64,000 nt of DNA from Soonwooa buanensis (GTDB taxonomy: Bacteria > Bacteroidota > Bacteroidia > Flavobacteriales > Weeksellaceae): the NCBI RefSeq assembly GCF_900167905.1, contig NZ_FUYZ01000011.1, positions 1 to 64,000 of the forward strand, given 5' to 3'. The translations under genes and the position numbers were made by a program. The notes under the pieces were generated by a model. It had not been told where the DNA came from and made no database searches. It was given only the letters and a program-made list of their open reading frames with translations. Shown here one piece after another: positions 10,324 through 43,340 of this stretch (position 1 is the stretch's first letter; each line of letters opens with the position of its first letter).

Positions 10324-10734
10324 ATGATGTCAAAACGTTGCAAATATGCTTTAAAAGCAATGGTCAGGTTAGCTAGAAATTACAATCAAGGCTTTCTGTC
10401 TACTTCTGTTATTGCACAAGATGAGAACATTCCAAAGAAATTTTTAGAGCAAATCCTTCTCGAACTTAAAAGGGTTAAACTTGTCAATAGTAAACAAGGT
10501 AAAGCAGGCGGCTATTACCTGCTAAAATCTCCTGATGATGTATCTCTAGCTGATATTTACCGTATTTTCGACGGTCCTATTGCGCTCACCTCGTGCGCTT
10601 CGTTAAATTTTTATGAGGCATGTGATGATTGTGTAGATGAAGCCGTTTGTTATTTGAGAAAAGAATTAATGATCGTTCGTGAAAAGACTAGAAAAAGCAT
10701 GATGGAGGCTACTCTAACTAAGTTTATTAATTAA
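10324..10734 (+). CDS. Rrf2-family transcriptional regulator
   Basis: This 136-residue protein has the Rrf2 winged helix at the N-terminus (KRCKYALKAMVRLA, then IPKKFLEQILLELKRVKLVNSKQGKAGGYYL). The regulatory segment carries cysteines at 91, 100, 103 and 109, similar to those that bind an Fe-S cluster in IscR or NsrR. Other Rrf2 members (CymR) control cysteine synthesis through CysK. Its position 88 bp before cysH suggests it controls the cys operon in response to cysteine, Fe-S status or sulfide, which is inference. ATG at 10324 or 10327 could serve as the start. Confidence 0.88.
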   Translation: MMSKRCKYALKAMVRLARNYNQGFLSTSVIAQDENIPKKFLEQILLELKRVKLVNSKQGKAGGYYLLKSPDDVSLADIYRIFDGPIALTSCASLNFYEACDDCVDEAVCYLRKELMIVREKTRKSMMEATLTKFIN

Positions 10735-31212: not shown

Positions 31213-33642
31213 ATGTTTAAAAATTGGCTTAAAATAGCATTCATCAATTATAGAAAGAATTGGCTTTCGACCTGCATTAATCTTTTGGGTTTGTCCTTGG
31301 GATTAACGGCTTTCTTGTTGGTTTTTCTGAATTGGCAAGACGAAAAATCTTATGAAAAGTGGATTCCAGAAGGTGATAATGTTTTTTATATTGAAAGGAT
31401 TTTAGGTCCAAAAAACTATAATTCGGTTAGCAGTTATCCGTTTTTAGATACGTCTAAAAAGTTGTTTCCTGAAATTCAGAATTTTTCGGTGATCAATTAT
31501 TGGGACTCTAGTAAATCGAGATTGTTGGCGGATGGACGTTCTAGTTATGCTACGTATGCGGATGTTTCGGAAGACTTTTTTAAAGTTTTACCTTTTCCGT
31601 TAGTTGCAGGGAGTTATGATAATCTTTTTGTGGATGAAAGCTCTATTGCGTTGTCCGAAGATGTTGCAAAACAATTATTTGGAGAAGATTATAAACAAAG
31701 TATTGGAAAAACAATTACCAAGGATGATACGGGTAAAAAAGTAGTGGTACAAGCGATTTATAAATTGCCTTCTGAGTCGGAAAATACGATTTTCAGACCA
31801 GGTTATGCGATGCGTCATGAAGGTATTAAATATGATAAAAATACTTGGAGTAATCACGGTTTTTTCGGATTTTATCGATTGAAACCAAACACCAATATAG
31901 CAGAATTAGAAAATAAATTATCGGCATTACAAAATAAAGAACTGAATATTGCGCTGAAAAAAGAAGGTTGGCCATTGTTGCAGCGACCAATTCAGATTCG
32001 GTTGGTGAATGTAAAAGAAATGCGCTTGGAGTCAAAAACTGGTGGTTTGCAAGGTGTTGACAAAAAAGCAATTGTTATTTTATTATCCTTGGCTGGACTG
32101 ATTTTGTTGCTTTCAGGAATTAATTTCATCAATTTAAATACAGCTCAAGCCTCGCAAAGAGCGAAAGAAGTTGGCGTTAGAAAATCATTAGGCGGTTCAA
32201 AAAAATCCTTGGTTTTCCAATTCCTTGTCGAGACTTTTATATTGTACTTTTTAGCGTTCATCATTTCCATCGTTTTGTTGGAATATTTGCTGCCATTCTA
32301 CGGAAAGTTTTTGGGTAAAACCATCAAAATAGGAAGTCCAATTTTGTATTTATATACGTTTCTAATTGTCGTTGTATTCGCATTTATTTCAGGGATTATT
32401 CCGTCGGTTTATTTGTCCAATTTTAAACCAATAGAAACTTTAAAAGGGAATTTCTCAAGAAGCAAACACGGTATTTGGCTACGGAATTCAGTACTCACAA
32501 TACAAATTATCATTTCCTCATTTTTCATTATTTCGTCATTGGTCATCAACAAACAGGTGAATCACATGATGGAAAAAGATTTAGGATTTAATGGTGAACA
32601 AGTGTATCAGTTGGATTTTATGAAAGATTCTTGGGCGAATGATTTTAACTATCGAAAATACAATTTATATAAAGAAAAAATCAAACATTTTCCTGGAGTA
32701 ATAGATGTTACGGGTTCTTTTCAAACTATTGGTAATGGCGTGCAAGGATCAACTGCTATTAAATACAAACGAGATTCAACGAAATATGTGGATGCTGGTG
32801 TTGGCGCGATTGATTTAAACTTTATAAAATTCTACAAGATAAAATTTGCGGCGGGACGAGATTTTAATCCAAAATTAACCAGTGATACGACTCGCGGAAT
32901 TATCGTCAACGAAGCCTTTGTGAAAGACATTGGTTGGACCAATCAAGAAGCGGTTGGAAAGCAAATGAGCAGCGGAACCGATGCTAAAGCGAAAGACTTG
33001 GAAATTATCGGTGTGGTGAAAGATTTCAATTTTGGAGATGTGCAGCGAGAAGTAAGTCCGGTGATGTTTTTCAATTACGATCGATTTTGGACAAAAAATG
33101 CATTGATGAATCTTCAGATAAAATTGACACCGGAAAATATGGACGAAAATTTAGCGAGAATCAAAAAATATTGGGAAACCGAAGTTGAAGCTGGCTATCC
33201 ATTACAAGGCGAATTTATTAATAAAACTTTTGCAAAAACTTTTGATAAATATAAAAAGCAGCAAACCTTATTTTCAGTTTTAAATATCATGGTTTTAACG
33301 GTTGCTTTATTGGGATTATTCGCGTTGTCATCCTTAATGATTGAGCAGAAATTAAAAACCGTCGTCATCCGAAAAACCCTTGGTGCAAGCGATTCGCAGT
33401 TGATAATGGTCTTAACGAAACAGTTTTTAGTCATCACCTTGGTGGCGGTTTTAATAAGCGTTCCGATTTCGTATTTCTTTATGAACGAATGGCTAAAAGA
33501 CTTCGCTTTCCGAATCGATATGCCTTGGTTTCCGTACATCGCGAGTTTGATTTTATTACTGATTTTGACCTTCGTTGTGGTCAGCATCAAAGCCTATCAA
33601 GCAACCAAAGTAAACCTTGTTAAATACCTGAAATACGAGTAA
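31213..33642 (+). CDS. MacB/FtsX-type ABC permease, copy 1
   Basis: This 809-residue permease has the MacB-type plan twice over: helix 1 near 20-43, a large periplasmic domain (about 50-280), three helices (about 285-420), a second periplasmic domain (about 450-685) and three C-terminal helices. The FtsX-like cores carry the hallmark motifs QRAKEVGVRKSLGGSK and VVIRKTLGASDSQL. It is duplicated in tandem twice more. Its first 20 codons and its last 100 residues are nearly identical to copy 2, while the periplasmic domains differ. It should transfer substrate to the adaptor in a mechanotransmission cycle. Confidence 0.92.
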   Translation: MFKNWLKIAFINYRKNWLSTCINLLGLSLGLTAFLLVFLNWQDEKSYEKWIPEGDNVFYIERILGPKNYNSVSSYPFLDTSKKLFPEIQNFSVINYWDSSKSRLLADGRSSYATYADVSEDFFKVLPFPLVAGSYDNLFVDESSIALSEDVAKQLFGEDYKQSIGKTITKDDTGKKVVVQAIYKLPSESENTIFRPGYAMRHEGIKYDKNTWSNHGFFGFYRLKPNTNIAELENKLSALQNKELNIALKKEGWPLLQRPIQIRLVNVKEMRLESKTGGLQGVDKKAIVILLSLAGLILLLSGINFINLNTAQASQRAKEVGVRKSLGGSKKSLVFQFLVETFILYFLAFIISIVLLEYLLPFYGKFLGKTIKIGSPILYLYTFLIVVVFAFISGIIPSVYLSNFKPIETLKGNFSRSKHGIWLRNSVLTIQIIISSFFIISSLVINKQVNHMMEKDLGFNGEQVYQLDFMKDSWANDFNYRKYNLYKEKIKHFPGVIDVTGSFQTIGNGVQGSTAIKYKRDSTKYVDAGVGAIDLNFIKFYKIKFAAGRDFNPKLTSDTTRGIIVNEAFVKDIGWTNQEAVGKQMSSGTDAKAKDLEIIGVVKDFNFGDVQREVSPVMFFNYDRFWTKNALMNLQIKLTPENMDENLARIKKYWETEVEAGYPLQGEFINKTFAKTFDKYKKQQTLFSVLNIMVLTVALLGLFALSSLMIEQKLKTVVIRKTLGASDSQLIMVLTKQFLVITLVAVLISVPISYFFMNEWLKDFAFRIDMPWFPYIASLILLLILTFVVVSIKAYQATKVNLVKYLKYE

Positions 33643-33732
33643 TAAAGATTCTAGAACCAAGAATCAAGAATCATGAAAAGTTAAAAATCTAGAATCTAGT
33701 ATCTCGGTTCTAGTATCTAAAAAAGAAAAGTT
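33643..33732. repeat. Operon intergenic repeat, copy 2
   Basis: This spacer shares long identical tracts with the spacer at 36148: AAAGATTCTAGA at its start, GAATCAAGAATCA heptamers, CTCGGTTCTAGTATCTAA and the run up to the next ATG. Duplication of the permease genes evidently included this spacer. Confidence 0.85.
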
Positions 33733-36147
33733 ATGTTTAAAAATTGGCTTAAAATAGCATTCATCAATTATAAAAAGAATTGGCTTTCCACCTGCATTAA
33801 TTTGTTCGGTCTAACCATTGGTTTAACGGGATTTATTTTAATCTTAATGCATTGGAATGACGAAGAATCCTACGAAAAATGGAATCCTAAGAAGGATGAT
33901 ATTTATTCATTTCAGGCATATTTCGATGCGCAGAAAGGCTATGGAAGCACGATTTCGTATCCGATGGCGGAAGAAGCTTTAAAGCGAATTCCAGAAATCA
34001 GTCATTTCGCATTACAAAATGGTGCTGGGTATTCAACAAAAATGATCGCCAATGGAAAATCTGTTTTTCAGGATGGTGGATTTCAAGTTTCGGAAGAGTT
34101 TTTTACTTTTTTCCCATTCAAGTTAATTTCGGGAAGCTATACAAACGCGTTGAAAAATGAATCCTCAATTGCGTTGTCTGACAAAGCGGCAAAAAATCTT
34201 TTTGGACGAACCAATGTTGCGGGCGAATCTTTAACTATTAATAGTAAAAACTATGTGGTAACGGCGGTTTATCAGCTTCCAAAAGAAAATACACAGATTA
34301 ATCCTGACTATGTTGCTTTGGCGTATGATCAAATTAAAAATGATAAAGATCAATGGGGAAATTTCAATTACGGTTGTTTTTTCATGTTGAAAAAAGGTGC
34401 GGACCCTCGATTGGTAGAAGAAAAATTTAAAAATGAAGTTCTGAAACTACGAGCGCAACTTGGCGCTAAAGAAGCTGGGATTTCAGTAAAAGAGTACCAA
34501 GATAAATACGGTCCGAACGATGTTTTATTAACGCCTTTGGATAAAATGAAATTGCATGCAAAAGCGTCGTGGTTTGGTGCTCCAGATTTTAAAACAATTT
34601 TGATTTTGTTTATATTCTCGGTACTTATCGTGGTTTTATCCGCTATTAATTTTATCAACCTTAAAACCGCTCAAGCGTCTCAACGTGCGAAAGAAGTGGG
34701 CGTTAGAAAAGCGATTGGAAGTACAAAAGCGAGTTTGATTTTTCAGTTTTTATTAGAAACTTTTTTAATCTGTTTGGCGGCTTTTATTTTGGCTTTAGGG
34801 CTTACAGAACTTGTTTTACCTTCATTTAATAAATATCTGGGAAAAGAATTGAAAATGACCGATCCAATGATTTTCATCTATTCTTTTGGGATGATGGCGT
34901 TGGTAAGTTTAATCGCGGGGATTATTCCAGCGCTATATTTATCGAACTTTAAAGCGATAGAAACTTTAAAAGGAAACTTCGCAAGAAGCAAACACGGTTC
35001 TTGGTTGCGTAACGGAATTTTGACTTTACAATTAATCATTTCATCCTTTTTTATCATCGGTGGACTTATCGTCAATTCTCAAGTGAAATACATGATGAAT
35101 AAAGACTTAGGTTACAATGGAAAGCAAATATTTCTACTTTTTTTCAACGAAAACTCACCTAAACCTTGGCTGAAATACGAACGTCTAAAAACAGAGATGA
35201 AAAAAATACAAGGCGTTGATGAGATTTCCTATGGCGAGGCGGTTCCAGGGCTTAATAGTTCGTCCACTTCCAACATGGATTATATGGACAAAAGTATCCA
35301 AGGTCAGCATGGTTCTATGGATTTCAATTATCTGCAATTTATTGGTGCCAAATTGAAGAAGGGAAGATGGCTTGATCCCAATTTAGCTTCGGATACGATG
35401 ACAAATGTTTTGGTGAATGAGGCTTTTGTTAAAAAAATGGGTTGGACGGATGATGAAGCGATGAAAGAGTATATAAAACCTGGTTTCGATTATCAAAAAT
35501 ATCATATTGTTGGAATTGTTAAGGATTTTAATGTTCGAGGCTTACAAGAAAAAATAGATCCAGTTGTGTTTTTTCATTATAAAGAAACGCAATGGAAACG
35601 TTTTCAAGTCTTTAATATTCAAGTGAAAGTTGATCCAAATGATATTGATGGAACTGTTTCTCGACTTAAAAAATATTGGGAAACCAATGTTGAACCGGGA
35701 TATCCAGTAGAATCGTTTTTCTTGGATAAAAAATTTGCTGAATCCTATGAAAAATATCAAAAGCAAAAAACCTTGTTTACCGTTCTCAATGCGATGGTTT
35801 TAACGGTTGCCTTATTGGGATTATTCGCTTTGTCATCGTTAATGATCGAACAAAAATTAAAAACTGTGGTCATTCGAAAAACACTTGGAGCAAGTGATTC
35901 ACAGTTGATTGTTGGATTAACAAAACAGTTTTTAATCATCACTTTAGTAGCGGTTTTGGTGAGCATTCCGATTTCGTACTATTTCATGAATGAATGGTTG
36001 AAAGATTTCGCTTTCCGAATCGATATGCCATGGTTCCCATACGTGTTGAGTTTGGTTTTATTACTGATTTTGACCTTCGTTGTGGTAAGCATCAAAGCCT
36101 ATCAAGCAACTAAAGTAAACCTTGTAAAATACCTGAAATACGAGTAG
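33733..36147 (+). CDS. MacB/FtsX-type ABC permease, copy 2
   Basis: This 804-residue paralogue of the preceding permease has the same double FtsX-like layout. It shares QRAKEVGVRKAIGSTK in the first core and VVIRKTLGASDSQL in the second. The second core and last 100 residues are almost identical to copy 1, while the periplasmic domain (about 50-280) is clearly diverged. This suggests that ends are kept alike by recent duplication or gene conversion and that the outer domains are selected to differ. It follows copy 1 by 90 bp. Confidence 0.92.
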   Translation: MFKNWLKIAFINYKKNWLSTCINLFGLTIGLTGFILILMHWNDEESYEKWNPKKDDIYSFQAYFDAQKGYGSTISYPMAEEALKRIPEISHFALQNGAGYSTKMIANGKSVFQDGGFQVSEEFFTFFPFKLISGSYTNALKNESSIALSDKAAKNLFGRTNVAGESLTINSKNYVVTAVYQLPKENTQINPDYVALAYDQIKNDKDQWGNFNYGCFFMLKKGADPRLVEEKFKNEVLKLRAQLGAKEAGISVKEYQDKYGPNDVLLTPLDKMKLHAKASWFGAPDFKTILILFIFSVLIVVLSAINFINLKTAQASQRAKEVGVRKAIGSTKASLIFQFLLETFLICLAAFILALGLTELVLPSFNKYLGKELKMTDPMIFIYSFGMMALVSLIAGIIPALYLSNFKAIETLKGNFARSKHGSWLRNGILTLQLIISSFFIIGGLIVNSQVKYMMNKDLGYNGKQIFLLFFNENSPKPWLKYERLKTEMKKIQGVDEISYGEAVPGLNSSSTSNMDYMDKSIQGQHGSMDFNYLQFIGAKLKKGRWLDPNLASDTMTNVLVNEAFVKKMGWTDDEAMKEYIKPGFDYQKYHIVGIVKDFNVRGLQEKIDPVVFFHYKETQWKRFQVFNIQVKVDPNDIDGTVSRLKKYWETNVEPGYPVESFFLDKKFAESYEKYQKQKTLFTVLNAMVLTVALLGLFALSSLMIEQKLKTVVIRKTLGASDSQLIVGLTKQFLIITLVAVLVSIPISYYFMNEWLKDFAFRIDMPWFPYVLSLVLLLILTFVVVSIKAYQATKVNLVKYLKYE

Positions 36148-36237
36148 TAAAGATTCTAGAGTCAAGAACCAAGAATCAAGAATCAAGAAAAGTCTCATGT
36201 CTAGAATCTCGGTTCTAGTATCTAAAAAAGAAAAGTT
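36148..36237. repeat. Operon intergenic repeat, copy 3
   Basis: This spacer carries the same heptamers and CTCGGTTCTAGTATCTAA tract as the spacer at 33643, and the same bases before the ATG. Confidence 0.85.
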
Positions 36238-38652
36238 ATGTTTAAAAATTGGCTTAAAATAGCATTCATCAACTATAAAAAGAATTGGCTTTCCACGATA
36301 ATCAATGTATTTGGGTTGAGCCTTGGTTTGTGTATTTTCTTGTTGGTATTCATCAATTGGCAAGACGAAAAATCCTATGAACAATGGGTTCCGAATAAAG
36401 AAAACATCTATTTGGTGGAAAATTCGGGGAAGGTGTTTGGTACAATGTCCGTTTCTAGTTTTCCCGAATTGTCTGTAACCACACAGAAATACGACGAAAT
36501 TGAAGATTACACCCTTTTAAATAATTGGGGAAAAATGAAAATTTCTTCCGAAGGAAAATCGGTGTATGTAAGCTCAGGAATGAGTGTAAGTTCTATTTTT
36601 TCCTTTTTGGCTATTGAAAAAATTGCAGGCGATTTAAGTCATGCATTGGACAACGAAAACCAAATCGCTCTTTCTGAACAAACTGCAAAGCAACTTTTTG
36701 GTGACGAATATCTGAAATCTTTAGGAAAATCCATTAAAAAAGATGATGACGGTAAAGTTTTTACCGTAAGTGCAATTTATAAAATGCCTGCGGAGAAAAC
36801 GGTTTTTAAACCTGAATTTATGATTAGAATGCCAGGTTTGAAGGAAGCCAATCAGTGGACGAATTATAGTTACACAGGTTTTTTTAGGCTTAAACCTGGG
36901 ACAGATCCTAAGATAGTAGAGGATAAAATAACCAAAGATATGCTGCGTGAAGATGCAATAACAGCCAAAAAATGGGGTTATGAAGCCGATAATAGTTTGA
37001 AAGTTATTTTGACACGAATTGATAAAATGAGATTGGACGCAGCTGGATTTGGAATAGAAAAAGGCGATAAAAAATCGATCCTAATTATGTTGGGTCTTTC
37101 TGTTCTTATTTTGGTTTTGTCAGCGATTAATCTGGTTAATTTAAAAACGGCACAAGCTGCTCAAAGAGCGAAAGAAGTAGGTGTTAGAAAGGCTTTAGGA
37201 ACTTCAAAAGGAAAATTGGTTTTTCAATTTTGGTTAGAAACCTTCGTCATTTGTTTGGTGGCTTATTTTGTTGCTTTTTGCATGATCGAGTTGCTGTTGC
37301 CGAAGTTCAATACATTTTTAAACAAAGAAATTAAGTTAGACGATTTCAGAATTTTTCTGCTGTCTGGATTGTTTTTATTCGTTTTTTCCTTGTTTGCTGG
37401 GGTTTTGCCAGCCTTGTATTTGTCCAATTTTAAACCGATTAATACGCTTAAAGGAAATTTTGCGAGAAGCAAAAGCGGTGTTTGGTTGCGAAATTCTATT
37501 TTGACCATTCAATTAATTATTTCGTCTTTCTTTATCATTTGTTCGGTTATCATTCATTCTCAAGTGAAACACATGATGAATAAAGAGTTAGGCTTTAAAG
37601 GTGATCAAGTGCTTTCGGTGCAATTTAAAAAGCAAAATCGTCAAGAAAAAGATTTTAATCTCAAAAAATATCTGCGAACGAAAGACGAGCTTAAAAGAAT
37701 TGCTGGCGTTGTGGATGTTACAGGATCGATGTCGGAAATTGGGATTGGTATGAGAAATACGTCGATTACAAAATATGCGGCTGATACAACAAAAATGTTA
37801 GAAAATGTGATGGTTGGCGGAATTGATGAAAATTATTTTAATTTCTATAAAATAAAAATGGCTTCTGGTCGCGATTTAGATTGGAAAAAAGCTTCTGATA
37901 CCATTAATGGAGCGGTTGTGAACGAAATTTTCGCTAAAAAAATGGGTTGGAATGATCAACAAGCTTTAGGAAAAGAACTGAAAACGGGTTGGGAAGAAAA
38001 TAAAAATTATAAAATTATAGGCGTTGTCAAGGATTTTTACATTAATGGCGTTAGTCAGCCAGTTACACCAGCAGTTTTCTTTAATTACAATAGAAATTGG
38101 GCAAAAAATCAAATGGATGGTGTTCAAATAAAGCTTTCTAAAAATGATATTGATGGAACGATCACTAGAATTCGTGATTTTTGGATGAAAGAAGTTGATG
38201 AAGGTTATCCGTTTGATTATTCTTTTGTTGACAAAAATTTCCAAAAGACCTTCCAAAAATTTGAAAACCAAAAAATATTGTTTTCAGTCCTAAATATCGT
38301 TGTTTTAGCGGTTGCTTTATTGGGATTATTCTCTTTATCATCATTGTTAATCGAGCAAAAACTAAAAGATGTCGCTATTAAGAAAACACTTGGCGCTGAT
38401 GAAAAAACAATCGTTTGGGATTTAACGAAAAAGTTCTTGATCATCACGGTTGTAGCAGTTATTTTGAGTTTTCCTTTGGGATATTACGCCATGAACGAAT
38501 GGTTGAAAGATTTCGCATATCGAATCGATATGCCTTGGTTTCCGTACGTTTTGAGTTTGATTCTTTTACTCTTATTAACCTTTGCGGTTGTGAGTATCAA
38601 AGCCATTAAAGCCACAAAACTTAACCTTGTTAAATTCTTGAAATACGAATAA
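36238..38652 (+). CDS. MacB/FtsX-type ABC permease, copy 3
   Basis: This 804-residue permease is the most diverged of the three. It has QRAKEVGVRKALGTSK in the first core and VAIKKTLGADEKTI in the second. The N-terminus (MFKNWLKIAFINYKKNWLST) is identical to copy 2. The C-terminus ends LVKFLKYE, against LVKYLKYE in copies 1 and 2. It shares the TM layout of its neighbours and is the last permease in the operon, before a spacer with mobile-type repeats and then the TolC gene. Confidence 0.92.
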   Translation: MFKNWLKIAFINYKKNWLSTIINVFGLSLGLCIFLLVFINWQDEKSYEQWVPNKENIYLVENSGKVFGTMSVSSFPELSVTTQKYDEIEDYTLLNNWGKMKISSEGKSVYVSSGMSVSSIFSFLAIEKIAGDLSHALDNENQIALSEQTAKQLFGDEYLKSLGKSIKKDDDGKVFTVSAIYKMPAEKTVFKPEFMIRMPGLKEANQWTNYSYTGFFRLKPGTDPKIVEDKITKDMLREDAITAKKWGYEADNSLKVILTRIDKMRLDAAGFGIEKGDKKSILIMLGLSVLILVLSAINLVNLKTAQAAQRAKEVGVRKALGTSKGKLVFQFWLETFVICLVAYFVAFCMIELLLPKFNTFLNKEIKLDDFRIFLLSGLFLFVFSLFAGVLPALYLSNFKPINTLKGNFARSKSGVWLRNSILTIQLIISSFFIICSVIIHSQVKHMMNKELGFKGDQVLSVQFKKQNRQEKDFNLKKYLRTKDELKRIAGVVDVTGSMSEIGIGMRNTSITKYAADTTKMLENVMVGGIDENYFNFYKIKMASGRDLDWKKASDTINGAVVNEIFAKKMGWNDQQALGKELKTGWEENKNYKIIGVVKDFYINGVSQPVTPAVFFNYNRNWAKNQMDGVQIKLSKNDIDGTITRIRDFWMKEVDEGYPFDYSFVDKNFQKTFQKFENQKILFSVLNIVVLAVALLGLFSLSSLLIEQKLKDVAIKKTLGADEKTIVWDLTKKFLIITVVAVILSFPLGYYAMNEWLKDFAYRIDMPWFPYVLSLILLLLLTFAVVSIKAIKATKLNLVKFLKYE

Positions 38653-40210: not shown

Positions 40211-40858
40211 TTACGAGGAAACAGCAATATTATTATCAATGTTCATGTTGGGAATATCTCTCGGGATTTTCCCAATTTCTAAATGCTGAATATATAGGGA
40301 AGGCGGGATGCCAACCACTTGCTTAAAAATTGTCGCGAATTTACTATGTGACGAATAGCCTGCTTCTTCGGCTAAGGAGCTGATTTTGTAGTGTCTATAT
40401 TCTTTATTTTCATTGAGTTGCTTCAAAATATAGTCGATACGAAGTTTGTTAATATACGCGTTAAAATCGCTGTGTTTATAATTTTTTATAATCTTAGAAA
40501 GATACTTTGTGTTGGTTTCTAGATAAGCCGCAAGATATGGTAGAGATAAATTTCGGTTCGTAAAAAGTCCGCTTTTCTCGAATTTTTCAAGCTTTTGAAT
40601 GATTTTGACACGAGTTTCTACCGTCATTAATTCTTGATCTTCGTTACGCTCTTCAGACAGTATTTCTGGGCTAATATTAGCACTCGTTTTTTCCTCTAAT
40701 TTAACATTAGGAGGCGTTTCGTCATTGAATGTAGTAAAAATTAGTGGATTTTGATCCTTTTTTTTCTTCACTAGATAATAATAAGTTGCAATAATCCCAG
40801 TAAGAATTCCTACTAAAATTGCAAGTATAAGGCACGTGAAGAATAAAGTTGTATGCAT
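40211..40858 (-). CDS. Membrane-anchored AraC-type regulator
   Basis: This 215-residue protein has one N-terminal membrane helix (about 5-28) followed by KKKK, a loose linker (about 35-80) and a C-terminal AraC-type DNA-binding domain (about 95-190; LSLPYLAAYLETNTKYLSKIIKNYKHSDFNAYINKLR, then KISSLAEEAGYSSHSKFATIFKQVVG). Transcription factors tethered to the membrane are known but uncommon. It is convergent with TolC (2 bp apart) and lies near the small secreted proteins. Its target is unknown. Confidence 0.88.
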   Translation of the reverse strand: MHTTLFFTCLILAILVGILTGIIATYYYLVKKKKDQNPLIFTTFNDETPPNVKLEEKTSANISPEILSEERNEDQELMTVETRVKIIQKLEKFEKSGLFTNRNLSLPYLAAYLETNTKYLSKIIKNYKHSDFNAYINKLRIDYILKQLNENKEYRHYKISSLAEEAGYSSHSKFATIFKQVVGIPPSLYIQHLEIGKIPRDIPNMNIDNNIAVSS

Positions 40859-41335
40859 AATTATATGTGTAAATAAAATGCGATTAAGCTTAGTTTTAAT
40901 GAAATATATAGCCTTTTTTGAAAGAATAATAAATTTTATAATCTAAATCTGAATTAAATTCATAAATAACAATAAATATAAGAAAAATTGATATTTATAA
41001 TTGATTATTTACTCTGCAAAGTTAAAAAATACATTTTGAATAAGCTTTCTTTTTAGAGGAAAATTTAACATTTGTTAATTTCAGGAAATTGTAAAGCTGT
41101 GAAGAAAACTTATGTTTGAGTTTTGAATTATGTTTAAAACATTGAAAATCAATATGATATTTATGTAGTCGTTTTGTAGTCTTTAGTTTTTTTAATTTTT
41201 TTTGTATTAGAATTCCGTTTTCCTTTAAAAGTGAAAAAGAGGCTTGCTTTATATGTTGTGTAATTTTGCCTCAACACAATTATATGATGAAGACTGATTT
41301 ATTTTCAAAACAATAATAAGTTAAGAATTCAAATC
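40859..41335. other. AT-rich intergenic region with promoter
   Basis: No gene is seen in this 477-bp space between the membrane-anchored regulator and the secreted-protein trio. TAATTTTG at 41261-41268 is an exact TAnnTTTG element 68 bp before the first trio gene. A short direct repeat GTAGTC recurs near 41167 and 41178. The rest is AT-rich with no recognised structure. Confidence 0.6.
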
Positions 41336-42001
41336 ATGAAAAAATTACTTGTAGTGACAAGTATCCTATCACTAACCTATATTGATGCACAAGTTGGTAT
41401 TAATACAACCAGTCCAACAAGGACTTTACATGTACAAGGTAATCTTAGAGTAGCGAATTTGCAAAACGTATCTGAGGATGCGGCATTTGATCGAATTCTT
41501 GTGTCAGATACCAATGGTAATGTCGATTACGCATCGCGTAGTAGCTTTCTACCAAATACTGGTGTTGGGGCTGTAGACAAAGAAAGTTATAGTGAAATCT
41601 ATAATAATACGAGCGCAAATGGTTTGCCAGATCGACGTCTGAAGTGTGGAAAATTCTTTTTCATTTTTGACACTGGTACAGATTCTAATGTTAAACTTGG
41701 TCTTAATGAGAAGCCGGCTGCGAGTGTTAATATCTATATGAATATGGAGCAGAATTGGAATAATGGTTTTCAGTTTTATCAAGGGACTAATGCTACTAAT
41801 GGTGTTGATGCGCCTTTTACTTTTACAACTTCTAATTATGATGTTGCACAAGAGTTTAAAAGTGCAAGACTCGACTCTTACGAGCAGAATGTTATGACTT
41901 TCCAGTATCCTGGTGATGCAGATATTTATAGATTAACAATTTATAAAGTACAACATACAGGTACTAGTTATGATTTTGTATCAGCTTGCGAAAAATTTTA
42001 A
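41336..42001 (+). CDS. Small secreted protein, tandem paralogue 1
   Basis: This 221-residue protein has a signal peptide (about 1-19, ending IDA). Right after it comes QVGINTTSPTRTLHVQGNLR, a motif like those near the start of Bacteroidota surface or phage-tail-like structural proteins. It has a pair of conserved cysteines, one in RRLKCGKFFFIFDTG and one in the last residues SACEKF, that could form a disulfide. The function is unknown. It is the first of three tandem paralogues of about 220 residues that end in the same CEKF motif. Confidence 0.75.
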   Translation: MKKLLVVTSILSLTYIDAQVGINTTSPTRTLHVQGNLRVANLQNVSEDAAFDRILVSDTNGNVDYASRSSFLPNTGVGAVDKESYSEIYNNTSANGLPDRRLKCGKFFFIFDTGTDSNVKLGLNEKPAASVNIYMNMEQNWNNGFQFYQGTNATNGVDAPFTFTTSNYDVAQEFKSARLDSYEQNVMTFQYPGDADIYRLTIYKVQHTGTSYDFVSACEKF

Positions 42002-42004
42002 AAA

Positions 42005-42685
42005 ATGAAGAAAAGTTTTATCTTTTTTAATATGTGCTTTTTAGCACTTTTATACAAAGGACAAAGAGTAGGTATTAATAATACGGATCCTCAAAGGACT
42101 TTGGATGTTAATGGGAATCTAAGAGTTACCAATATCGTTGATAAATCTGCAGTTGCCGGAACAGATCATCTAATAGCAGTTAATCGTCAAAATGGGAATG
42201 TCGACTATATTGATATTAAATCTTTGCAACAATCTGGTAAAAACAATATGGAAGTCGGGCGTTCTATATATAATGCAACGACGGCAGATACAGCTAAAGA
42301 GTGTAGCTGCGGTGATATTATTGTACGTTTTAACGGTAACAAAGCTGAATTTAAATTAAAAACTACTGATGTTTTTACGAGTAATGGAGAAACAAATTTT
42401 AACTTATCTTATGGTATAAAGCGCTTTAGTGGATCTAGTTATTCGTATGTTAATAAAACTAATGTCGCATTCCAAAATGTTAACAATCAAGCCTTAGACT
42501 ATTATAATAAATATAGAAATCTAGATGATATAGATTTTACTGACAGTATGATTGGGATTTATACTTTGGTCTTGCCAAAACAGGATAATCTCTATAGGAT
42601 AACGATGGGACGTTTTAGCAATTCTTCGACTACAAGAACCTATAGTTTAATTTGTGAAAAATTTTATCTACAAGATGCTTTATAA
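42005..42685 (+). CDS. Small secreted protein, tandem paralogue 2
   Basis: This 226-residue paralogue has a signal peptide (about 1-19) and RVGINNTDPQRTLDVNGNLR. The conserved cysteines are in CSCGDIIVRFNG and ICEKF. Unlike paralogues 1 and 3 it does not stop after EKF. It runs six residues further (YLQDAL) and overlaps the start of paralogue 3, as though its own stop had been lost. Spacing to paralogue 1 is 3 bp, so the three are translationally coupled. Confidence 0.75.
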   Translation: MKKSFIFFNMCFLALLYKGQRVGINNTDPQRTLDVNGNLRVTNIVDKSAVAGTDHLIAVNRQNGNVDYIDIKSLQQSGKNNMEVGRSIYNATTADTAKECSCGDIIVRFNGNKAEFKLKTTDVFTSNGETNFNLSYGIKRFSGSSYSYVNKTNVAFQNVNNQALDYYNKYRNLDDIDFTDSMIGIYTLVLPKQDNLYRITMGRFSNSSTTRTYSLICEKFYLQDAL

Positions 42686-43340
42686 AAAATTAAAAAGTTT
42701 TGTACTCTTACTAACAATTGGGGTACTAAATGCTCAAGTGGGGATCAATACAACGACACCTACTAGGACTTTGGATGTTAATGGTGATTTACGCTTAAGA
42801 TCAACAGTAGATAAAGCAACAGACCCTGCATACAATCGTGTTCTTGTAAAAGATGTAGATGGTAAGGTCGACTATTGGACAAAACAAGAAGTGCTTAATA
42901 AAATTGAAGCTCTTTATGTGGTTAATAAAAAATTCACAGCTTCTAAAACGGGACCAGATCCTGCAACAATTGTCGCTTGTGGAAAATTTGAGTTTAGATA
43001 CAATTCGCCTGTAATGCCACAGATAAGACTTGCCACTGCAGGAACAGGTTCAACAAGAATTTATTATAACAGAATACGGAAAAGAGACAGTTCAGCAAAT
43101 GGATTTACCACAGAAACTGGACGCAGCTTTAATTCAAATCAATATGTAACGATTCCTAGAGCGAATACTTGGCAAAATATTGGGGCATCCAGTGATAGTA
43201 CTGGAAATTTTACCAATAATACATTTGATGAATATTATATAACATATCCAGGAGATACTAATATGTACCGTGTTACGTTTTTGGCCAGAAATGCTGGCGG
43301 TGGAAATGTCAATTACTCCATGGTTTGCGAAAAATTTTAA
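42675..43340 (+). CDS. Small secreted protein, tandem paralogue 3
   Basis: With the ATG at 42675 this is a 221-residue protein, the same length as paralogue 1. It has a signal peptide (about 1-18, ending LNA) and QVGINTTTPTRTLDVNGDLR. The conserved cysteines are in IVACGKFEFRY and the terminal MVCEKF. The earlier in-frame GTG at 42654 lies inside paralogue 2 and would precede the signal peptide, so the ATG is preferred. A terminator follows 38 bp after the stop. No sorting domain is present, so the route to the surface is unclear. Confidence 0.75.
   Translation: MLYKKLKSFVLLLTIGVLNAQVGINTTTPTRTLDVNGDLRLRSTVDKATDPAYNRVLVKDVDGKVDYWTKQEVLNKIEALYVVNKKFTASKTGPDPATIVACGKFEFRYNSPVMPQIRLATAGTGSTRIYYNRIRKRDSSANGFTTETGRSFNSNQYVTIPRANTWQNIGASSDSTGNFTNNTFDEYYITYPGDTNMYRVTFLARNAGGGNVNYSMVCEKF

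Follow-up and report, generated by a model that had tools for sequence, protein, structure and literature searches.

Three tandem genes on the forward strand (the trio) lie in the 64,000-nucleotide stretch of Soonwooa buanensis DNA that was analysed, the window, and their features are listed in Table 1. The preliminary description had reported three tandem genes whose products share a start motif, a cysteine pair and a terminal CEKF, and we find the same: the lengths are those of Table 1, the N-termini resemble signal peptides, and each protein shows a Sec-type signal, then VGINxTxPxRTLxVxG and then a CG...CEKF domain. Identity to protein 1 is 30% for protein 2 and 33% for protein 3; in the alignment of the three proteins, both cysteines are invariant, and the VGIN start motif accounts for many of the invariant residues. 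The GC content of the trio (0.341) is window-like (0.348 for the window). For gene 3, the open reading frame list starts at GTG 42654; we prefer ATG 42675, since this start gives a normal signal peptide and the same start is read in a second genome of the genus, G001. Genes 2 and 3 then overlap, as they do in G001, which likely results in translational coupling. The −7 box of the Bacteroidota type has the consensus TAnnTTTG, and a possible copy, TAATTTTG, precedes gene 1. Among the 18 sets examined in the window and related genomes, the candidate is found at −75 in the window set, −72 in G136 and G276 and −73 in G001 and is absent there in the other 14; on this weak evidence, it may be the −7 box of the trio.

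Table 1. Features of the trio in the window and positions of the small-protein pairs at other loci
Feature	Location	Coordinates	Strand	Description
Possible Bacteroidota-type −7 box	Window	41261..41268	+	TAATTTTG; 75 bp before gene 1
Gene 1 (type 1)	Window	41336..42001	+	221 aa; predicted signal peptide, capping loop and tip; C-terminus ACEKF
Capping-loop motif, gene 1	Window	41393..41440	+	VGINTTSPTRTLHVQG; from sequence, PDB profile matches and the published motif (PMC10769870, available text)
Gene 2 (type 2)	Window	42005..42685	+	226 aa; CxCG...CEKF, then conserved tail
Capping-loop motif, gene 2	Window	42068..42115	+	VGINNTDPQRTLDVNG; from sequence and trio alignment
Type-2 tail	Window	42665..42682	+	YLQDAL after CEKF; same residues in G001, encoded with synonymous codon changes
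Overlap of gene 2 end and gene 3 start	Window	42675..42685	+	11 bp; same overlap in G001
Gene 3 (type 3)	Window	42675..43340	+	221 aa from ATG 42675; C-terminus VCEKF
Capping-loop motif, gene 3	Window	42738..42785	+	VGINTTTPTRTLDVNG; from sequence and trio alignment
Small-protein pair	L092	8096-8838
Small-protein pair	L171	6059-6787
Small-protein pair	L172	5359-6139
Small-protein pair	L175	3802-4642
Small-protein pair	L177	4964-5708

Searches of Pfam and NCBIfam at E ≤ 1 return no informative domain for the trio proteins, and Pfam lists zero families. Neither library contains a match to a type IX secretion C-terminal sorting domain at this threshold, in agreement with the preliminary description, and the C-terminal S74 chaperone-protease domain is absent from the Pfam results (E ≤ 1). 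The best PHROG matches (9563, 13535 and 28668) cover the N-terminal part only and belong to families without an assigned function. No surface anchor was recognised in the trio proteins, which may therefore be periplasmic.

The N-terminal motif resembles a known structural element. It begins at residue 20-22 of the trio proteins, immediately after the signal peptide. When a profile of nine trio proteins was compared with 177,635 PDB sequences, the top two matches were MyRF (E = 0.093) and Bd2133 of Bdellovibrio (E = 0.11); each is weak alone, and both align on VGIN..P...L. In the available text of PMC10769870, this element is the capping loop of beta-helical trimers, common to the MAT fibres and MyRF, and a PDB search with the loop returns MyRF. 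The consensus printed there, V-G-G/N-pi-X-X-P-X-X-X-L, is one position shorter than the MyRF loop, so a symbol has probably been lost from the text. The stalk of MyRF is described as the triple beta-helix of a homotrimer (PMC8326128, passages available). Outside the trio family, capping-loop genes occur as 34 singles, 13 pairs and 10 triples at hand-chosen, non-random loci, counted after removal of fragments of interrupted sets. The members of one such triple, in G016, are 47-50% alike and match those of a triple in G011 irrespective of position.

To follow the trio across relatives, a search for which had been suggested in the preliminary description, we compared a nine-row trio profile with 320 genomes of the family. 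Full-length homologues are found in 18 of them, the window genome included, and form 20 sets, in all of which types 1, 2 and 3 follow one another in this order along the same strand. Of these sets, 15 are open throughout, that of G275 contains an assembly gap in gene 2, and a single gene is interrupted in each of the remaining four (gene 1 in G267, gene 2 in G259, gene 2 in the Algoriella set G265b and, within the signal peptide, gene 1 in G001). In G342, an extra truncated type 1 copy lies between genes 1 and 2 (L088 4661-5944). G022 holds a trio relic only, beside a 244-aa protein gene and a gene that we take to be mnmE-like; the same two neighbours are found near the G259 set, with one more gene between. 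The genera with a trio include Chryseobacterium, Epilithonimonas, Algoriella, Empedobacter and Vaginella; the window genome belongs to genus g1, and the Chryseobacterium-like genomes G125 and G101 belong to genus g21, so an origin of the window in Chryseobacterium is not supported. The neighbouring genes differ between genera, so the trio behaves as one unit. In two wider samples of 395 genomes each, one of the order (family members included) and one of the phylum, full-length matches are confined to family members; outside the family, six genomes of the order sample and three of the phylum sample have matches, which cover the N-terminal part only. Searches by tblastn with protein 1 against plasmids and with protein 3 against phages gave no matches.

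A tree of 61 rows, with a long-branch warning for G247_s and G261_1, resolves one clade per gene position, and the support values are 97/91 for type 1, 94/94 for type 2 and 100/99 for type 3. The position groups require three changes on this tree, which is the minimum, versus a mean of 30.7 after shuffling. The interrupted genes of G267 (gene 1), G265b (gene 2) and G259 (gene 2) and the G022 relic were excluded; the fragments of these three genes each best match the expected type. Conservation of the trio exceeds chance. From the position clades, the trio probably predates the divergence of the genera in question, barring its transfer from one to another. In the 18 sets in which spacing was measured, the genes overlap or are separated by no more than 25 bp, except for gaps of 757 bp in G342 and 264 bp in G265b that contain an intervening truncated copy or an interruption. 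The exact spacings vary with the ATG chosen; values of −41 and −32 and one of +24 reflect the choice of the script.

The middle gene had been described as having lost its stop codon and reading into the next start, but the comparison gives a different picture. The C-terminus of gene 2 reads ICEKFYLQDAL. All 18 type-2 rows extend 3-6 residues beyond CE[KR][FYH], mostly as FYxQxL, and such a tail is present in 0 of the 39 type-1 and type-3 rows. The tail and the overlap also occur together in G001. Since all type-2 rows carry the tail and its codons differ from those of G001 by synonymous changes, the apparent loss of the stop is a conserved feature of this chain, and degeneration of the middle gene is ruled out.

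The cysteine pair distinguishes the trio from its solitary relatives. Cysteine occupies the two columns in 58 of 58 and 57 of 57 trio rows, one truncated row having no residue at the latter. We compared these with 11 solitary homologues having the same tip, which are the examined full-length or tip-covering matches outside sets from the family and order-sample searches. Cysteine is found in none of the 11 at either column; the first is occupied by A, I or V and the second by A, L, M or V. Likewise, no orphan with the cysteine pair is present among the matches listed in the family profile search, which extend to near E = 1e-13. The joint absence of both residues from the solitary homologues suggests that the two cysteines pair, and they probably form a disulfide, within or between chains. 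The solitary homologues are 224-439 aa long with 1-3 capping-loop matches each, and five of the 11 have further motif matches inside the chain, with three in the 439-aa protein (L176).

To examine the part of the chain beyond the motif, we modelled proteins 1 and 3 as single chains with AlphaFold, each from a 32-row alignment (window and L108-L117 proteins). The mean pLDDT is 80.6 for protein 1 and 81.2 for protein 3. The tip blocks are predicted to be all beta with pLDDT mostly 80-96, falling in places to 76 for protein 1 and to 61-64 for protein 3. Residues at about 20-40 have pLDDT of 51-60 in these single-chain models, a pattern that a chain folding only as a trimer could show and that by itself is no evidence of one. 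When the protein 3 model was compared with viral models by Foldseek, 13 matches reached E ≤ 1e-3, the best at 8.1e-7. Those with a name include an Aeromonas phage tail fibre (rank 4, 1.3e-5) and a collagen-like phage protein (1.3e-4), and most are nameless; query TM-scores are low (0.15-0.44) and the rmsd is often large. Fold searches of the PDB with the models of proteins 1 and 3 yield zero matches at E ≤ 1e-3. Most of what these searches list are common beta arrangements (legume lectins, carbohydrate-binding modules, ASF1 and transglutaminase), none of them at E ≤ 1e-3. VIA gives best Z values of 6.2, with 103 aligned residues at an rmsd of 4.1, and 5.9, with 90 at an rmsd of 3.4; the tool rates such values as common. 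Structure prediction, proposed as a check in the preliminary description, gives an all-beta tip, and its likeness to phage tail fibres is seen among viral models at low TM-scores.

A second three-gene family repeats this arrangement. The window genome itself has a second triple on contig C29 (L044 5096-7615), and its proteins match those of a triple in G021 position by position, at 46, 49 and 39%, against about 28-33% across positions. With a profile of the second family at E ≤ 1e-20, 152 of the 320 family genomes are matched, 146 of them with at least three matches. Every one of the 22 loci read (those of the window genome and of G021, and 20 selected among the best listed matches) carries exactly three consecutive genes, always in the same order. 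The position clades have support of 99/98, 100/99 and 100/99 in a tree in which the rows of the window genome are flagged as long branches. Beyond residue 25, two cysteines are present in each of the 66 proteins. In five genomes that were followed up and have a full triple, further matches reach at most positions 1-168 of the 262 in the profile. Elsewhere, G079 has two triples and G260 has three genes that form a divergent set; in G017 and G142, the matches are partial only. Profile comparison of the two families gives an alignment in the N-terminal part only; they show the same plan with two tips that have no detectable relation.

Taken together, a stalk motif of trimers, a paralogous set that is kept, genes that are close or overlapping and the repetition in the second family make a heterotrimer the simplest reading. 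From the genes and single-chain models, we propose, with a probability of roughly 0.6, that the operon supplies the three chains, each different, of a single small trimeric fibre that is exported. The Sec pathway would export each of them, as the signal peptides suggest, and each would contribute one capping-loop segment, recognised at the sequence level, to a short triple-beta-helix stalk; a C-terminal tip domain that is all beta and has one pair of cysteines would follow. Chains 1, 2 and 3 would co-assemble 1:1:1, with tight spacing and the gene 2/3 overlap keeping their synthesis balanced, and the tip would show three different faces, unlike that of a homotrimeric fibre. By its resemblance to fibre tips, the tip probably binds a surface glycan or protein, and on the same resemblance the function of the trio is probably adhesive. 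The preliminary description had suggested a surface role, or one in competition, for a secreted paralogous trio; the paralogous trio with export signals stands, and the surface role fits the fibre-like architecture predicted by sequence and models.

The main rival to the heterotrimer is that each of the three proteins from the operon forms a homotrimeric fibre tip by itself and binds a ligand of its own, and that the set is kept as the specificities cooperate. We consider it rather unlikely, although several observations agree with it. The characterised relatives are symmetric or homotrimers, namely MyRF (PMC8326128) and the MAT fibre Bd3182 (PMC10769870), as described in the parts of these papers available. 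The same bacteria commonly carry capping-loop genes singly or in pairs, and identity among the three proteins is only about 30%. Operon linkage can also hold three homotrimers together; genes of an operon are inherited together, so a fixed composition is no proof of one complex. Against three homotrimers, all three types are represented in each of the 20 sets, though four have one interrupted gene, and the order is constant; the second family repeats the count of three; and the cysteine pair is missing from the 11 solitary homologues examined.

Two further readings dispense with a trimer. The shared N-terminus may be an export or docking signal instead of a stalk, and the trio would then be monomeric secreted proteins. 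The motif does lie directly after the signal peptide in the trio proteins and is common to proteins that show no relation in their C-terminal parts; however, the further in-chain motif matches in five of the 11 solitary homologues are as found in fibres, and trimers are known to use this motif as a structural loop (PMC10769870, available passages). We judge a docking signal improbable. A role in interbacterial competition, which the preliminary description had hinted at and which could take the form of a toxin/immunity set, agrees with the divergence of the tip sequences between species. This proposal finds no support in Pfam, NCBIfam or PHROGs, where no toxin, immunity or effector family is matched by the trio, and a cytoplasmic immunity partner is not apparent among three proteins that all have export signals; we regard it as very improbable.

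The proposed heterotrimeric fibre shares features with several known systems. Like the MAT fibres of Bdellovibrio, the trio proteins have a signal peptide, the capping-loop motif and variable C-terminal tips, and there are several genes per genome. However, MAT fibres are typically about 1,000 aa long and have a conserved beta-rich domain of ~130 aa after the signal peptide, and the crystal structure described for them is a symmetric trimer of one chain (PMC10769870, available text), whereas three chains are proposed here. In the trio, the capping loop directly follows the signal peptide, so there is no room for such a domain. MyRF and the phage S74 (ICA) spikes have in common with the predicted fibre a triple beta-helix stalk, and MyRF also has the VGIN..P...L loop, but these proteins contain a self-cleaving chaperone domain and are described as homotrimers (PMC8326128, available text). 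A likeness in gene arrangement is found in the tail of the virophage DSLV2, where three consecutive proteins are reported to form a stable 1:1:1 heterotrimer that binds cyanobacterial cells (PMC12724248, passages available). Both have three consecutive genes of comparable length, conserved as a set; although the DSLV2 receptor-binding fibre is a reported complex, the trio is known here from genes and single-chain models. The DSLV2 tail also differs in being viral and gp37-like, with no secretion signal in the passages available, and the two are likened by description and not by sequence (PMC12724248). The DSLV2 complex indicates that an arrangement of three consecutive genes can work as a heterotrimer. 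C1q of the animal immune system is likewise a heterotrimer with globular heads encoded by three adjacent paralogous genes, but with a collagen stalk. Anabaena phage A-1(L) was rejected as a fibre precedent, because its heterotrimeric parts, in the text available, belong to the baseplate wedge and not to fibres. A literature text search for the motif strings VGINTT and VGIGTT returned nothing, nor did one for Chryseobacterium with 'tail fiber domain-containing protein'.

More tentatively, and with slightly less than even chances in our estimate, the Weeksellaceae may make a class of exported, cysteine-bearing heterotrimeric fibres from operons of three paralogues in fixed order, with at least two tips that have no detectable relation, as bacterial counterparts of C1q or the virophage tail with three different binding faces on one tip. 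The characterised beta-helix fibres in the available parts of the papers cited here are homotrimers or symmetric trimers. If the fibres are obligate heterotrimers, each tip would have three different surfaces, and assembly must pick the right partners. Within a single bacterial family, the same solution would then serve two or more tips that show no detectable relation, and gene sets that are nameless in the libraries used, for example the second family with its three or more profile matches in 146 of 320 genomes, would gain a testable function.

Regarding the neighbouring genes, the membrane-anchored AraC regulator noted beside the trio is indeed found, as a divergent gene at 40211-40858 that encodes an AraC-type helix-turn-helix protein with an N-terminal hydrophobic segment. 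By tblastn, it is present at only one of the 18 other trio loci (which include G259, G267 and the three G265 sets), the same-genus one, and it was rejected as a dedicated regulator of the trio. Two proteins beside genes for putative fibres at other loci (L092 3867-4838 and L104 6011-6865) have hydrophobic segments and weak LuxR-type helix-turn-helix matches below the curated cut-off; together with the AraC protein of the window, they give hints of membrane-anchored regulators near fibre loci. At five loci, a pair of small proteins that look similar by eye lies beside such genes (Table 1), and the pair in L172 has weak helix-turn-helix matches. In the adjoining transporter cluster, positions 31213-38652 of the window encode three permease-like proteins in tandem (809, 804 and 804 aa) that look alike. 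Lastly, gene 1 in G001 is interrupted (L042 about 10456-10530) because its reading frame breaks within a T-rich part of the signal peptide. The AraC gene beside that trio is also frame-broken in the same assembly, so a sequencing error is likely; phase variation is a possible explanation of the break in gene 1.
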